From Flavobacteriales bacterium (GTDB lineage Bacteria; Bacteroidota; Bacteroidia; Flavobacteriales_D; Sanyastnellaceae), in assembly GCA_022428285.1 (NCBI GenBank), contig JAKMCX010000156.1, forward strand, positions 1 to 51,389: a stretch of 51,389 nucleotides of DNA, in the 5' to 3' direction. Shown here in pieces: positions 1 through 9,170 of the stretch (its first letter is position 1; each line of letters opens with the position of its first letter). A program made the translations under genes and the position numbers. Below the pieces are notes generated by a model. That model was not told where the DNA came from and searched no databases. It was given only the letters and a program-made list of their open reading frames with translations.

Positions 1-2613
1 GGTGTTACACCGAACGGCATTCAGCCACCATTGTTTGGGACTTTCCCGAACCTCCAATACGATTCGTGGGTGACCATCGGTTTGTCATCCGCACCTGAGT
101 CCTCCATTGGTGAAGCTTCAGTGACCACGGTTCAGGGATCGTCCAATCCATGGGCGGCCAACTTTGACCCAGGCTTTGGCGCTGCAGGTGGAGACATTGT
201 GATCAACGACGCTGTGGGAGGCAGCTGGTTTGCATTGAACGGCGATGCCAATGGCATTGCGGCCAACAGCGATGACCAGCAGGTCCTCATAGCACAGCTC
301 ACCACCAGTGGTGACGTGGAAGGCAACTTCTACGTGCAGGTGTTCGAAAACGGCATTGGATCCAACGCCCTGTTCTTCAACTTCAACATTGGCGACGCTT
401 GTGTGGCTCCCGACGACGACTGCCTGTTCCCCGAGGACTTTTACGGCGTGGACTATGTGGACTGCGACGGCAACTGCCTCAACGATTCAGACGAAGACGG
501 CGTGTGTGACGAGGACGAGATCGGAGGATGTACAGATGAGATGGCTTTGAACTATGACTCTGGAGCTACAGACGACGATGGCACTTGTGCTTATCCTGCA
601 GCCAGTGTTTTTGACATCATTGAGGCGAGTGCAGCGCACACTGTGCTCGAGAGTTTGATCATTGCAGCTGGACTGGATGAAACCCTGACCAACGATGGTG
701 CTTGGACGGTCTTCGCACCCACGGATGCAGCCGTCGACGCTTTGCCAGATGCGATTGTCGACTATGTATTGTCCAACCCAGCTGCGCTGACAGAGGTGTT
801 GACCTATCACGTTGCAGCTGATTCTGTGACGAGCGACATGCTCAGCGATGGCCTCGCGGTTGAAATGCTCAACGGCCAGACCGCCACAATCTCCATCACC
901 GCTGATGGAATCTTCATCAACGATGCAGAAATCATCATTGCGGACTTGATTGCTGAGAACGGCGTGGTCCACGTCATCGACGCGGTCATTGTTCCTGCAA
1001 TTTCTGGCTGCACAGAATTGGTCTCTTGCAACTACAATCCCTTGGCTGCCACGGACGATGGATCTTGTGAAACAGAGAGCTGTACCGGTTGTTTGAACGA
1101 AATGGCCTGCAACTTCGACAGTACAGCCACCATCAATGATGCTCCGAGTTGTTTGTTCCCAGCGGACCTTTACGGTGTCGACTATGTGGACTGCGCAGGA
1201 GACTGTATCAGCGACATCGATGAAGACGGCATTTGTGATGAAGCAGAAGTGGATGGTTGCATTTATGAAGACGCCTGCAACTATGACGCCACAGCCACAG
1301 AAGACGATGGCAGTTGCGACTACGAAAGCTGCGCGGGTTGTACCGACGACATGGCATGCAACTACGATGAGACCGCCACCATCAATGATGGCTGCCTCTT
1401 CCCAGTAGACCTCTATGGTTCACCATACGTGGATTGTGATGGTGTCTGTCTCAATGATTCAGACCAAGATGGCATCTGTAATGAAGATGAGATTGTAGGT
1501 TGCTTGGATCAAGGTGCTTGCAACTACGACCCGAACGCCACGGATTACGATGTGACATTGTGTGATTACAGCTGCTTGGGTTGCACCGATGAAACCGCTG
1601 CGAACTTCGACCCGTCAGCGACCATTGACGATGAGAGTTGCCAATACTGCGCCCTGGCCATTGATTCAGCAGTGACTGTTGTTGATTTGCTCTGCGCTGG
1701 AGATGCCAATGGTAGCATTTCAATTGAAGGGTCTACTGGAGGATTTGGATCGGTGGTCTATGCTTTGGAAGGCGACCCGTTCCAAAACAACCTCACCTTT
1801 GATCAGCTCGCTGGAGGTTCTTACAAAGTGATCGCCATGGACTCCTTGATGTGCACAGACACATTGACTGCATTTGTGAACGAGCCTTCACCCATTGTGC
1901 TGCTCGCCTTCGCCACTGACCCATTGTGTAACGGCGGAACGGACGGAGCCATTTTGGCAACTGCAGAAGGCGGCACCGGTGACATCACCTATGAGTTGGG
2001 TGGAGAAACCAGCGCCGATGGCAACTTTGAAGGCTTGGACGCCGGTCCATACACCGTTGTCGCAACCGACGCCAATGGCTGTGAGACCGACATCGCTGCA
2101 GAGGTGGCCGATCCAGAAGCGATCGTCATCACCGTGGACGAAGCTACCGATCCTGACGGAGCACCAAACGGAGAGATTTCAGTTTCTGTAGAAGGTGGAA
2201 CAGGCGATCTGACTTTCGCTTGGGATGGCCCCAATGGCCCTTATGATACAGAGGACATTGCCGGACTCGAAGACGGAACCTATGCGTTGACCGTCACAGA
2301 CGAAAACGGTTGTTCCGAAGTAGAGGTGGTCACCTTGACCACCATCGGATTGACAGAAGTCACAGGAGCGCTGACTGTTTCATTCATGCCGAACCCCACA
2401 AATGGTCAGCTGATCATGGAGTTGGGACAAGCTGTGAACGACGCCATCCTCGAAGTCTTTGATGGCGCTGGACGCCGTGTCTTCCGCCAAGAGGCGCTGA
2501 GCATCGGAAGCCGCATGCCTTTGGACTTTGGAAGCTTGGCCGATGGAGTTTACCAAGTACGCATTACTGTGGAAGAAGCGACCGCTACCCAGCGTGTTGT
2601 GGTACGCCACTGA
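1..2613 (+). CDS. Secreted T9SS-sorted multidomain protein (5'-truncated by window edge): GCTD-type Cys-rich repeats, fasciclin (FAS1)-like domain, SprB-like repeats, C-terminal sorting domain
   Basis: Frame is open to base 1 (GVTPNGIQPPLFGTFPNL...), so the ORF-track start at 31 is not the real start. FAS1-like segment 'VFDIIEASAAHTVLESLIIAAGLDETLTNDGAWTVFAPTDAAVDALP...NGVVHVIDAVIVP'; three SprB-like repeats '..GTYALTVTDENGCSE'; CTD 'MPNPTNGQLIMEL...GRRVFRQ...LADGVYQVRI'. Confidence 0.85.
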   Translation, partial: GVTPNGIQPPLFGTFPNLQYDSWVTIGLSSAPESSIGEASVTTVQGSSNPWAANFDPGFGAAGGDIVINDAVGGSWFALNGDANGIAANSDDQQVLIAQLTTSGDVEGNFYVQVFENGIGSNALFFNFNIGDACVAPDDDCLFPEDFYGVDYVDCDGNCLNDSDEDGVCDEDEIGGCTDEMALNYDSGATDDDGTCAYPAASVFDIIEASAAHTVLESLIIAAGLDETLTNDGAWTVFAPTDAAVDALPDAIVDYVLSNPAALTEVLTYHVAADSVTSDMLSDGLAVEMLNGQTATISITADGIFINDAEIIIADLIAENGVVHVIDAVIVPAISGCTELVSCNYNPLAATDDGSCETESCTGCLNEMACNFDSTATINDAPSCLFPADLYGVDYVDCAGDCISDIDEDGICDEAEVDGCIYEDACNYDATATEDDGSCDYESCAGCTDDMACNYDETATINDGCLFPVDLYGSPYVDCDGVCLNDSDQDGICNEDEIVGCLDQGACNYDPNATDYDVTLCDYSCLGCTDETAANFDPSATIDDESCQYCALAIDSAVTVVDLLCAGDANGSISIEGSTGGFGSVVYALEGDPFQNNLTFDQLAGGSYKVIAMDSLMCTDTLTAFVNEPSPIVLLAFATDPLCNGGTDGAILATAEGGTGDITYELGGETSADGNFEGLDAGPYTVVATDANGCETDIAAEVADPEAIVITVDEATDPDGAPNGEISVSVEGGTGDLTFAWDGPNGPYDTEDIAGLEDGTYALTVTDENGCSEVEVVTLTTIGLTEVTGALTVSFMPNPTNGQLIMELGQAVNDAILEVFDGAGRRVFRQEALSIGSRMPLDFGSLADGVYQVRITVEEATATQRVVVRH

Positions 2614-2636
2614 CCTCCGAACCTGCAAGTGATTGT

Positions 2637-2664
2637 AAAACGCCGGCCTTTGGGCCGGCGTTTT
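2637..2664. terminator. Intrinsic (possibly bidirectional) terminator hairpin AAAACGCCGGCC-TTTG-GGCCGGCGTTTT
   Basis: Perfect 12-bp inverted repeat with 4-nt loop, A-tract on one side and T-tract on the other, 23 bp after the stop codon at 2613. Confidence 0.85.
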
Positions 2665-2748
2665 CATTTTAATAACCCGCAAAGAATGCGGAAATTGGAC
2701 ATGATGAGTATCCCATCCATTCTACCCGGCACCTTCACGAAACTGAAC

Positions 2749-5319
2749 ATGAGCCGCGCCCTCGTTCTTCCCTTTTTTCTCCTCTTTATACAAGGAGCCC
2801 AAGCTCAATCTTGCGCTCCGCAGGATACCGTGGGCATTCAGCTGTTTTTGGGAGCGGATACGGTTTCTCTGCAGCTTCAAGTCGACACTTCCGCCACCAT
2901 GGGGTTTGATGTCGGGGTGGACAGCCTTTGCGGGCCCGACAGCATTTCGCCTTGGGCTTGTTTGTCTCTGGACACGACTTACACCGTGGCTTCCATTCCG
3001 CCCAACGGCGAGGCCACCTTGGAGTTTGACATTTTGGTTCAAGCCGACACTTCGGCGCCCGTGGTCATGTTCGACTTAGGGGAGTGGCCGCTGTTGTCGG
3101 CATCGGCATGGTGGACAGCAGGTGGGGACACAACGGAGGTGGACCTCTTGATGGAGTCTACGTTCACCCTTGCCGCTGATTCAGCGGTCACCATTGTGCA
3201 CTGCACGTGGACGCCGAATTGCGCGGTTTTTGGCTGCATGGACACAGAGGCCTGCAATTATGATGAATCAGCTACCGAAGACGACGGTTCATGTGAGTAT
3301 CCCTTTTTCTGTTTTGACTGTGATGGCGGATGCCTTTGCGATGAAGACGAAGACGGGGTCTGCGACCCCTTCGAGTTTCCCGGCTGCACCGATCCAGAGG
3401 CCTGCAATTTTGCGCCGGTTTACACAGAAGAAGATGGCAGCTGCTTTTATGCGCAACCAGGGTTTGACTGTGCGGGATTCTGTCTGCCTATGGTCAACGA
3501 TGAATGCGGGTTTGCCGATCCCATCGCCTGTGGCCAAATCGTTTCGGCCTCTACGGTATGTGCGGACACGACCGAGAGCGATTTCTGTGACCAGTACAAC
3601 ATTGGTCAGTACTACCACGGTGGGCTGTGGTACACCATCATGGGCACGGGAGACACCCTCAGGGCAACGATGTGCTTCGAGGATACCGAATACGACACCT
3701 ATTTGAGCGTCTATGATGGCGACTGTGGCAACCTCGATTGCATCGCGGGCAACGACGACCAAGACGAAACGAATTTCTTCGCGGAGCCTTGCTTCGAGAA
3801 TTTCTTGTCCTCTTCGGTGAATTGGGAAAGCGAAGAAGGAGTGGAGTACTTCCTGCATGTGAGCGGATCCAATGCGGTGACGCCTGCGGTGGGCGGTTTT
3901 GATTTCGTGCTTGTTTGCGACGGGGTCGAAGTAGGAGCGTGTTTGGATTCTCTCGCCTGCAACTTCAATCCTTTTGGCACCTTCGAAGATGGATCGTGCG
4001 ACTATACAACTTGCGCAGGTTGCGGACTCCCTGCCTCGTGCAACTTTGACAGCACAGCCGTGATCAACGATTTGACGCTGTGTGATTTCAGTTGTTACGG
4101 TTGCACCGACATCACGGCGTGCAATTTCAACCCTGATGCTACGATTGAAAGTGGCCTGTGTGAGTACACATCTTGCGCGGGTTGTTTGGATCCCGAAGCA
4201 TGCAACTTCGACGTCAACGCTACGATTGACGGAGAGAATTGCGAATTCACATCCTGCGTGGGGTGCACGGATCCAAGCGCATCCAACTACAATCCCGGCG
4301 CCACTGAGGAAGATGGAAGCTGCACCTATTGCGATTTGGTGTTGTCACCACCAGAGGTCACCAATGAGTCTTGTTTTCAAACCGGTGATGGGGCCGCCAT
4401 TGTGGCCGTGGATTCGGCTTTGACCGATTCAGTCTTATTTGGGCTGACGGCCCCAGGATTCGCAGAATCGGGTCTTTGGACCGGGGGGACCTTTGCGAAC
4501 CTGCCTCCAGGCGATTATTTGCTCGAGGTATTTGATGGCGATTCTTCTTGCAGTGCAGTGGAGGTCTTCACCATTGATGCGGCTCCGGACCCCGCCTTGT
4601 TCTTGGTGGCATCTTCACCGGCATGCGCCGAAGGAAATGATGGGAGTGTCTCGGCATTTGTGGCCGGGAACGTCATGGCGACGTCGTATCAATTGAATGG
4701 AGATCCGGCCAGCATCGATGGCAATTTCCTCGGCTTGTTCGCGGGCGAATATTTCGTGGACGTGACCGTACTGACCACAGGCGGATTTACTTGTACCGAT
4801 ACCGCCAGCATTGTTGTGGTCGATCCCGAAGGCATGGTCGTGACCATCGATGAAATCGGCGGAGCCAATCCAGGAGAAGAAAACGGGGAGGTTTCCGTCA
4901 CCGTGACCGGTGGGGTGGAGCCCTACACCTTTGAATGGACAGGCCCAACTGGATCTACTGGTGCAGAAGATCCCGACGATCTCGGATCAGGGGATTGGAC
5001 CTTGGAAGTGACCGGTGATGACGGCTGTTCTACCACGGTGGTGGTGTCTGTACCTGTGGGCATCAAAGAGTGGAGAAGCCCGCGGTTTGCCGTGGTGCCC
5101 AACCCCACCCGAGACGCCTACAAGGTGCAGTTTGCGCGGCCATTCCAAGGCGTCCTTGAATTGACCGATGTCGCGGGCCGTCGATTGGACCTCCAGATTG
5201 TGGAGTCCAGCATCGTGCACGGCACGCTGTCGGGAAGACCAGCGGGTGTCTACCTGCTGAGGGCCATGGACCAGCAGGGCAGTGGCGCTGTAATCCGCTT
5301 GGTCAAGCAGGGCGAATAA
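2749..5319 (+). CDS. Secreted T9SS-sorted adhesin-like protein, paralogous in architecture to the preceding gene (GCTD repeats, PPC/CUB-like module, SprB-like repeats, CTD)
   Basis: ORF 2629-5319; ATG at 2749 begins a good signal peptide (MSRALVLPFFLLFIQGAQAQS). About 7 GCTD/CLD-type units; C-terminus 'VVPNPTRDAYKVQF...GRRLDLQ...RPAGVYLLRAM'. Confidence 0.85.
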   Translation: MSRALVLPFFLLFIQGAQAQSCAPQDTVGIQLFLGADTVSLQLQVDTSATMGFDVGVDSLCGPDSISPWACLSLDTTYTVASIPPNGEATLEFDILVQADTSAPVVMFDLGEWPLLSASAWWTAGGDTTEVDLLMESTFTLAADSAVTIVHCTWTPNCAVFGCMDTEACNYDESATEDDGSCEYPFFCFDCDGGCLCDEDEDGVCDPFEFPGCTDPEACNFAPVYTEEDGSCFYAQPGFDCAGFCLPMVNDECGFADPIACGQIVSASTVCADTTESDFCDQYNIGQYYHGGLWYTIMGTGDTLRATMCFEDTEYDTYLSVYDGDCGNLDCIAGNDDQDETNFFAEPCFENFLSSSVNWESEEGVEYFLHVSGSNAVTPAVGGFDFVLVCDGVEVGACLDSLACNFNPFGTFEDGSCDYTTCAGCGLPASCNFDSTAVINDLTLCDFSCYGCTDITACNFNPDATIESGLCEYTSCAGCLDPEACNFDVNATIDGENCEFTSCVGCTDPSASNYNPGATEEDGSCTYCDLVLSPPEVTNESCFQTGDGAAIVAVDSALTDSVLFGLTAPGFAESGLWTGGTFANLPPGDYLLEVFDGDSSCSAVEVFTIDAAPDPALFLVASSPACAEGNDGSVSAFVAGNVMATSYQLNGDPASIDGNFLGLFAGEYFVDVTVLTTGGFTCTDTASIVVVDPEGMVVTIDEIGGANPGEENGEVSVTVTGGVEPYTFEWTGPTGSTGAEDPDDLGSGDWTLEVTGDDGCSTTVVVSVPVGIKEWRSPRFAVVPNPTRDAYKVQFARPFQGVLELTDVAGRRLDLQIVESSIVHGTLSGRPAGVYLLRAMDQQGSGAVIRLVKQGE

Positions 5320-6975: not shown

Positions 6976-7105
6976 AGGGCAACAGTTTGGAATCGACTTC
7001 GGATACTGTCTCGGATTCCAAAAGGTTTCATCCCACCTCAATTGTCCCCATTCCTGAAGGATGCACTTCTGGGCAGTCGTATATTCACTTTGCAAACCAA
7101 AGGCC

Positions 7106-8494
7106 ATGCGCGACCTGATTGACCAAATCCGCAAAAACACCCCAGCAGGCTTTGATTTCGAGTGGCTCGGGAAGTTCGTCAGGAACATTGATTGCACTTC
7201 CTTGGACCTGACGGGATTGGTCCCGGAATTCGATGCGAATTCGGGGAATTATGCGCGGAATATTTTGCTGATGGAGCCTTTTGAGGTGGTCATTTTGCAC
7301 TGGCCTCCTGGCGTGGAGAGTGCCATCCATCACCACGAAGGCTTTTGGGGATATGTGCTGTGTGTCGAAGGGGAAGTAGAAAATGTGGAGTACACCTTCG
7401 ATGCGGAAACGCAAGAATTGAGAGAACGCAGCGCCCTGTGCGTCAAGGCCGGCGGCGTCTTGCCAGAGCCAGATGGCACCATTCACAAAATTGTGAACCC
7501 CAGTTCAGACCAGCCTTTGGTTACCGTGCATTTTTATGCGCCAGCCCTGGAGGACCTGGACGGTATGGTGCTCTACGATGCCGAACGCTGTTGGCGTGGA
7601 GAGTTGAATGAGAAAGCCACGACAGCTTCCTTCAATCAAGACGAGCAAGGGTTTCGAAGTTTGCAAAAGGACGCGTTTTCATTTGTCCCCCTCAATGCGA
7701 CGCCAGGCAATGAGACCCACAGGCTGTACCCCCTGATCCCCAAGCCATCCAATGGGGAGATTTTGGATTCCATTTCCCGGTATTATGCCGAGCAGGCCGC
7801 GAGCTACGACGACCTCGATGGTGCCAGCATGAAGCGCAGCCGTTACACCGCAAGGATCGACGAAATCTTGGCGGCAGACCTGAAAGAGATTCAGCCAGAG
7901 CGTGTCTTGCACATTGCTTGTGGAACTGGACGCCGCGCGTTGGGGATTCGAGATGCTTCACAGGTAAATTACACCGTGGAAGGGGTCGACATCAGTGCAT
8001 CTATGGTCGAGCAAGCCCGTCAGCGGGGTGTTCAAGCCCGCATTGGTGTGTGGAATGAATGTGGGGCAGACAGGGGTGCCTACGATGCTGTGACTTTCCT
8101 CTATGCGTTTGGACACATTCCATCAGAAAAGGAGCGCAGAGAGAGTTTGGACAAGGTGTTTTCGGCCTTGAAACCAGGAGGGCGTTTTTATTTCGATGTG
8201 TTCAACTTGGACAATGCCAACGAGTGGGGGCCCGAAGCCCTCCGAACTTTTAAGGAACTGAAGCTGAGTGAGGAAGGGTATGAGCAGGGTGACTTGTTCT
8301 ACAAACGTCACAACGGCACTTCGGTGTCATTTCTGCATTATTTCACCCAAGATGGGATCACAGATATGGTCGAAGCCTGCGGATTTGATATTTCGGGAAT
8401 TCACCGGATTGGGTATGTAGAAAAGTGTGGGAAGTCACTGGCCCTCGGAGAAGAGGGAGGCAACTTCTTGATCATCGCAGAAAAACCCCATTGA
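7106..8494 (+). CDS. Fusion: cysteine dioxygenase-like thiol dioxygenase (cupin) + class I SAM-dependent methyltransferase
   Basis: N-terminal 'YARNIL...LHWPPGVESAIHHHEGFWGYVLCVEGEVENVEYTF...GTIHKIVNPSSDQPLVTVHFYAP' (CDO cupin motifs); C-terminal 'ERVLHIACGTGRRALG...VEGVDISASMVEQAR...LKPGGRFYFDVFN' (Rossmann MTase motifs); one continuous ORF. Confidence 0.85.
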   Translation: MRDLIDQIRKNTPAGFDFEWLGKFVRNIDCTSLDLTGLVPEFDANSGNYARNILLMEPFEVVILHWPPGVESAIHHHEGFWGYVLCVEGEVENVEYTFDAETQELRERSALCVKAGGVLPEPDGTIHKIVNPSSDQPLVTVHFYAPALEDLDGMVLYDAERCWRGELNEKATTASFNQDEQGFRSLQKDAFSFVPLNATPGNETHRLYPLIPKPSNGEILDSISRYYAEQAASYDDLDGASMKRSRYTARIDEILAADLKEIQPERVLHIACGTGRRALGIRDASQVNYTVEGVDISASMVEQARQRGVQARIGVWNECGADRGAYDAVTFLYAFGHIPSEKERRESLDKVFSALKPGGRFYFDVFNLDNANEWGPEALRTFKELKLSEEGYEQGDLFYKRHNGTSVSFLHYFTQDGITDMVEACGFDISGIHRIGYVEKCGKSLALGEEGGNFLIIAEKPH

Positions 8495-8528: not shown

Positions 8529-9170
8529 ATGACGGATTTCGAGGACAGAAAAGCATACGACAAAGGCAGCCTGCAGGATTTGGAGCAATCCGATGTCATC
8601 GGGCTTTTAACGGAGTGGCTTCAACAGGCCAAGGCTTCTGATCCCACAGATTACAATGCCATGACGTTGTCGACTGTGGGCCATGACGGCCACCCCAACG
8701 CCCGCATCGTGTTGCTGCGTTCACTTGAGGAAAATGAGAAGGGCTGGTCTGTGGCCTTTTACACCAACTACAGGAGCACAAAAGGACAAGAGTTGACGGC
8801 CCATCCTCATGCCGCTGCCACGTTTTTTTGGAGTGCGCTTGAGCGGCAGCTTCGAATCAGGGGCAGGGTGGTCCAGATGACGCCCGCCGAATCAGACCGC
8901 TATTTCGCGTCCCGACCTCGGGAAAGTCAAATTGGAGCATGGGCATCGTCCCAAAGCGAGAAGGTGGAGAGCCGCGCAGCCCTGCAAACTTTGTGGGATG
9001 AGCAGAACAAGGCGCACAAAGAAGATGTGCCGCGCCCGCCCCACTGGGGAGGTTTTCTGCTGCACATCGAGCAGATCGAATTTTGGCAAGGCCGTCCCGG
9101 AAGGATGCACGATCGGATCAGCGCCCAGCTTCTTGGCCAAGGGTGGCAAATCAGCCGGTTACAACCCTGA
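8529..9170 (+). CDS. pdxH: Pyridoxamine 5'-phosphate oxidase
   Basis: PdxH motifs 'AMTLSTVGHDGHPNARIVLLRSL', 'FYTNYRSTKGQEL', 'ASRPRESQIGAWASSQSE', 'PPHWGGFLLHIEQIEFWQGRPGRMHDR'. Confidence 0.93.
   Translation: MTDFEDRKAYDKGSLQDLEQSDVIGLLTEWLQQAKASDPTDYNAMTLSTVGHDGHPNARIVLLRSLEENEKGWSVAFYTNYRSTKGQELTAHPHAAATFFWSALERQLRIRGRVVQMTPAESDRYFASRPRESQIGAWASSQSEKVESRAALQTLWDEQNKAHKEDVPRPPHWGGFLLHIEQIEFWQGRPGRMHDRISAQLLGQGWQISRLQP

Follow-up and report, generated by a model that had tools for sequence, protein, structure and literature searches.

The window analysed here, a 51,389-nucleotide stretch of contig JAKMCX010000156.1 from a Flavobacteriales bacterium (family Sanyastnellaceae; assembly GCA_022428285.1), contains a reading frame that an initial annotation took for a thiol dioxygenase (CDO) fused to a SAM-dependent methyltransferase (MTase). 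The locus raises the questions whether the two domains truly form one protein and, if so, whether the fusion couples the oxidation of a thiol to methylation. Thiol dioxygenases are known enzymes; the fused methyltransferase is what is new. A search of open-licence full text found nothing on a CDO-MTase architecture, in agreement with the earlier remark that no such pathway had been described.

A single open frame encodes both domains

Nucleotides 7106-8494 of the forward strand constitute one uninterrupted open frame, without a stop, for a protein of 462 amino acids. Relatives share the ATG at 7106 and make no use of another ATG that lies in frame at 7061. The features of the locus are as follows.

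7106..8494, + strand: CDO-MTase fusion gene, 462 aa plus stop (open frame, start common to relatives, full-length homologues)
7106..7705, + strand: thiol dioxygenase (cupin, CDO_I) domain, residues 1-200, with predicted metal ligands H75, H77 and H127, putative substrate arginine R51 and a T140-H142-Y144 network (PF05995, alignment to solved CDOs, invariance, Foldseek)
7706..7747, + strand: ordered linker, residues 201-214, ending in an invariant PKP (model confidence >90)
7748..8491, + strand: class I SAM-dependent methyltransferase domain, residues 215-462 (Pfam PF13649/PF13489, Foldseek to small-molecule MTases)
8529..9170, + strand: pdxH, pyridoxamine 5'-phosphate oxidase (TIGR00558 equivalog, scoring 231.6 bits; cut-off 180)

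Pfam placed CDO_I (PF05995) at residues 49-150 (E=3.8e-10; 40 bits, cut-off 23) and Methyltransf_25 at residues 267-359 (E=1.7e-13; 51.5 bits, cut-off 27). Based on 44 sequences, AlphaFold2 predicted a compact single two-domain protein (pLDDT 94.8, pTM 0.90). The linker, in which P212-K213-P214 is invariant across 44 fused homologues, was modelled at a confidence >90 with no weak stretch, and in this confident predicted fold the two domains would form one rigid unit. Both domains are under purifying selection, with dN/dS values of 0.049 for the CDO part and 0.069 for the MTase part; these values rest on the comparison with a close relative (L004), several other pairs being saturated and giving no value.

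Residues of Arg-type CDOs and class I MTases are conserved

Alignment to solved CDOs showed that Y49 and R51 correspond to Tyr58 and Arg60 of rat CDO, H75 and H77 to His86 and His88, H127 to His140, H142 to His155 and Y144 to Tyr157, with G82 at the position of Cys93. Seven of these residues (Y49, R51, H75, H77, G82, H127, Y144) do not vary among the 44 fused homologues, and the eighth, H142, is conserved in at least 90%. The three-histidine metal site of Arg-type CDOs (H75, H77, H127) is therefore present. Arg or Gln at the Arg60 position tells Arg-type CDOs from 3-mercaptopropionate dioxygenases (PMC8050391), and here it is the invariant R51, not Gln. The alignment thus bore out what had been read by eye, namely the kept CDO residues, Gly at the Cys93 position and the Arg type. 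A point missed at that time concerns the Ser-His-Tyr network: His and Tyr are kept, but Ser is replaced with Thr (T140, conserved in at least 90%) in most members and kept in a few.

In the C-terminal half, the SAM motif I ACGTGRR at residues 271-277 is conserved, and G273-T274-G275-R276-R277 are invariant in the 44 fused homologues. The Rossmann-like SAM-binding fold and the glycine-rich motif I of class I MTases were both found (Pfam, model, Foldseek), and the earlier assignment of a complete class I MTase holds. Judged from its sequence, the fusion protein is an Arg-type thiol dioxygenase joined to a complete class I SAM methyltransferase.

The nearest known counterparts of the N-terminal half are the Arg-type type I CDOs (B. 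subtilis YubC, PDB 3EQE/4QM8/4QM9; mammalian CDO1). It shares with them the 3-His site, the carboxylate-binding arginine, the His-Tyr outer sphere and, with Gly in place of Cys93, an unmodified Tyr, and Foldseek aligned it with B. subtilis CDO 4qm9 at a TMt of 0.85 and 24% identity. The fusion differs from ordinary CDOs in having mostly Thr for the network Ser and in its C-terminal MTase domain, and its CDO clade is divided from theirs by a long, starred branch of the tree.

The best matches of the MTase domain, in sequence and fold, are small-molecule MTases of about 20% identity, including NmbA and glycine sarcosine N-methyltransferase; the matches are generic, with N- and C-MTases scoring alike. 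NmbA (PDB 9RI2), which methylates the cysteine nitrogen of bacillithiol (PMC12719100), shares the class I core, but is free-standing and acts on bacillithiol. The match to NmbA is not specific: 1WZN and 9ICZ, among other MTases, score about as well. A comparable fold score came from glycine sarcosine N-methyltransferase (PDB 5HII family), a class I amino-acid N-MTase that is also free-standing, but membership of its family was rejected (NF051855, 29.7 against a cut-off of 350). OvoA likewise joins a SAM MTase to an iron-dependent enzyme that oxidises sulfur, and its iron domain is not a cupin. Membership of the OvoA family was also rejected: the model of its C-terminal MTase (TIGR04345) scored 21.6 bits against a cut-off of 170, and a CDO cupin stands in place of the OvoA iron domain.

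The fusion is conserved in a restricted lineage

Scanning one genome per species, we found 55 related loci. Both domains lie in one frame in 49 of them; of the other six, three have only the CDO domain, two are cut by contig ends and one encodes an unrelated MTase. The 49 full-length fused loci come from independent Bacteroidota genomes and are 37-82% identical. They are mostly labelled as uncultured Flavobacteriales, with some Cytophagales, Chitinophagales, Salibacteraceae and unclassified Bacteroidota. One species label, Chryseobacterium gleum for CAMCHP010000047.1 (L067), looks wrong; its counterpart, G030:C47, sits in the window's own family. Within the order, this CDO clade was present in 40 of 395 genomes, and 39 of the 40 frames are about 450 aa or longer, the remaining one being cut by a contig end.

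An error of assembly or a frameshift could in principle have joined two separate genes. We found no support for such an artefact, and the 49 full-length fused loci together with the 39 long frames of the order sample make it extraordinarily improbable; we reject it. The one-polypeptide fusion claimed by the initial annotation is therefore real, and the search for the two-domain architecture that it proposed recovered the fusion in relatives. It had named a frameshift, a lack of conservation in related genomes and a loss of catalytic residues upon real alignment as findings that would speak against its reading, and none of the three was found.

Among 297 genomes sampled from the phylum, the window's own was the only one to carry the fusion. 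The fusion is therefore lineage-restricted, and a wide spread across the phylum is rejected. A census of CDO_I in 60 relatives identified 23 genomes with a CDO, none of them with two, and the CDO is fused to an MTase in 21 of the 23. The fusion described above accounts for 20 genomes (21 with the window's own), a second fusion for one (G038) and an ordinary single-domain CDO for two (G033 and G042). The fused form is the main CDO in these relatives; in the lineages sampled, it has all but replaced the ordinary one.

A second fusion and CDO-only relatives bear on coupling in opposite directions

The second CDO-MTase fusion (L041, L128 and L147/L149) occurs in three families and encodes proteins of 528-551 aa. 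Like the first, it consists of an Arg-type CDO followed by Methyltransf_25 and has MTase-less relatives (L129, L130 and L138) in its CDO clade. It differs from the first in about 120 further residues between the domains and in its CDO clade, which a 100/98 branch splits off the first clade; moreover, the MTases of the two fusions match each other no more closely than they match generic MTases. A single shared origin is thus not supported by the distinct CDO clades and the generic MTase-MTase match. We read this as a second, separate fusion event, which took place within the same class and involved a CDO of another clade. Because there are two separate fusions, a functional link between CDO and MTase is favoured, and the coupling reading is strengthened.

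Evidence of the opposite kind came from relatives that carry the CDO domain without an MTase. There are three in the first clade (L091, L095 and L096). On a starred branch of the tree, L095 nests among fused proteins. The CDO-only gene of L096 (6001-6576, +) has the same gene context as the fused genes of L058 and L064, with pdxH next; at this locus the MTase domain appears cleanly absent. A natural split would have left a detached MTase, but no close one was found in the genomes of the CDO-only relatives, only generic MTases of 23-30 bits. Given the nesting, the shared context and the lack of a detached MTase, the MTase was probably lost in these relatives and the CDO is probably able to work alone. 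Methylation would therefore be dispensable in L091, L095 and L096, which weakens the coupling reading.

The two domains might also act on unrelated substrates, the fusion being a historical accident retained for expression or stability. The nesting of CDO-only relatives in the fusion clade is compatible with such an accident, as is the fact that the methyl acceptor is not identified by the MTase matches. The second, separate fusion and the retention of the first across many lineages make it less likely, and we regard it as improbable.

pdxH is a probable operon partner of the fusion

pdxH begins 34 bases past the stop codon of the fusion and is the sole copy in the genome (the only PF10590 match). 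It is the next same-strand gene in 20 of the 49 fused loci, as well as after the CDO-only gene of L096, and the adjacency recurs in several otherwise different gene contexts. Four-base overlaps of the fusion with pdxH (6882-6885 in L061, 7356-7359 in L065) suggest translational coupling. PdxH may feed PLP to enzymes that use cysteine sulfinate, or offset the loss of PLP to cysteine.

Fused loci without pdxH next have other neighbours, SulP-family transporters included, and genes similar to YeeE/YedE for sulfur transport lie near the second fusion in L149. Asparaginase_2 genes adjoin both fusions (L094, 7381-8439, +; L148, 1404-2429, -); they are probably not part of the system, as the surroundings hold glycan-degrading genes (GH92, GH16, PNGase F). 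In the window itself, two long proteins encoded at 31-2613 and 2629-5319 (+) show, by eye, repeated cysteine-rich units (ACNYD..AT..DGSC) and C-termini that resemble secretion sorting tails.

The linkage to pdxH bears on another explanation, in which a PLP enzyme, supplied by PdxH, decarboxylates the cysteine sulfinate made by the CDO, and the MTase then methylates hypotaurine or taurine to produce N-methyltaurine or taurine betaine. Consistent with this, pdxH is the gene immediately after the fusion in many loci, and the window's genome has one PF00282 PLP decarboxylase. In G033 (L142), such a decarboxylase (2067-3473, +) starts 5 bases after an ordinary single-domain CDO (1507-2061, +); this pair is likely a cysteine-to-hypotaurine operon, the layout expected for taurine synthesis. 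However, the decarboxylase of the window's genome is unlinked to the fusion, and several fused genomes show no such decarboxylase. Members of the genus have PF00282 with and without the fusion, so that there is no clear co-occurrence. On balance, we consider methylation after decarboxylation unlikely. The sulfite oxidase family PF00174 is absent from the window's genome, which is incomplete.

Proposed function of the fusion protein

Mammalian CDO binds cysteine bidentately through the thiolate and the neutral amine, with contributions from Arg60 and Tyr157 (PMC8050391). We propose that the N-terminal cupin would bind Fe(II) via its three histidines, with Arg51 holding L-cysteine, or a close analogue of it, by the carboxylate, and would add O2 to the thiol to yield cysteine sulfinate; this oxidation step is strongly predicted, with cysteine as the most likely among carboxylate-bearing thiols. 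The class I MTase, packed rigidly on the cupin, would then methylate the product with SAM. Methylation should be the second step, because CDOs bind the free amine of cysteine at the iron and, by analogy, a cysteine already methylated on nitrogen should be a poor ligand. The acceptor is most likely nitrogen, the alternatives being a sulfinate or carboxylate oxygen and the sulfinate sulfur; since N- and C-MTases score alike, nitrogen is a guess favoured by chemistry, not a result. To a bifunctional enzyme of this kind, with methylation most likely on nitrogen, we assign a probability of about 0.45.

CDO-driven oxidation of cysteine normally ends in taurine or sulfite. With its nitrogen methylated, cysteine sulfinate would escape both PLP-dependent routes, decarboxylation to hypotaurine and transamination to sulfite, and would be stabilised as an end product or an osmolyte-like compound.

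Alternatively, the two domains could be parallel sinks for thiols: the CDO would oxidise cysteine while the MTase methylates cysteine, homocysteine or a low-molecular-weight thiol on the thiol group, serving thiol homeostasis instead of a sequential pathway. Parallel sinks account for CDOs that live without the MTase. NmbA, a near match of the MTase, acts on a low-molecular-weight thiol, albeit on its nitrogen (PMC12719100), but it is one of several near-equal matches. Furthermore, the rigid joint architecture and the long-kept fusion better suit a shared intermediate, and no gene for the use of S-methylcysteine was seen near the fusion. We therefore hold parallel sinks to be quite unlikely.

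The coupling of S-oxidation and methylation suggested by the initial annotation thus stands as a plausible inference. The second, separate fusion speaks for it, as do the conserved CDO and SAM-motif residues, the low dN/dS, the rigid predicted fold, the prevalence of the fused form, the sulfur transporters near some fused genes, the linkage to pdxH and the presence of two N-MTases among the best MTase matches. Besides the CDO-only relatives, the generic MTase matches, the lack among the neighbours of genes that make or use a methylated sulfinate, the occurrence of the PLP decarboxylase family in the genus irrespective of the fusion, and a pdxH linkage that over half of the fused loci lack count against it.

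Aquatic Flavobacteriales, a little-studied group, live where sulfonates and methylated sulfur compounds serve as major currencies, and our results suggest that these bacteria add methyl groups to oxidised cysteine. A far-reaching version, which we think unlikely, is that the fusion makes a new class of metabolite, cysteine sulfinate or sulfonate with up to three methyl groups on its nitrogen and then betaine-like, and that Bacteroidota evolved the coupling of dioxygenation to methylation at least twice. The coupling, to which the second fusion adds weight, is directly testable with a single purified protein. A CDO that may hand its product straight to an MTase points to a branch of the organic-sulfur metabolism of aquatic Flavobacteriales for which we found no description.
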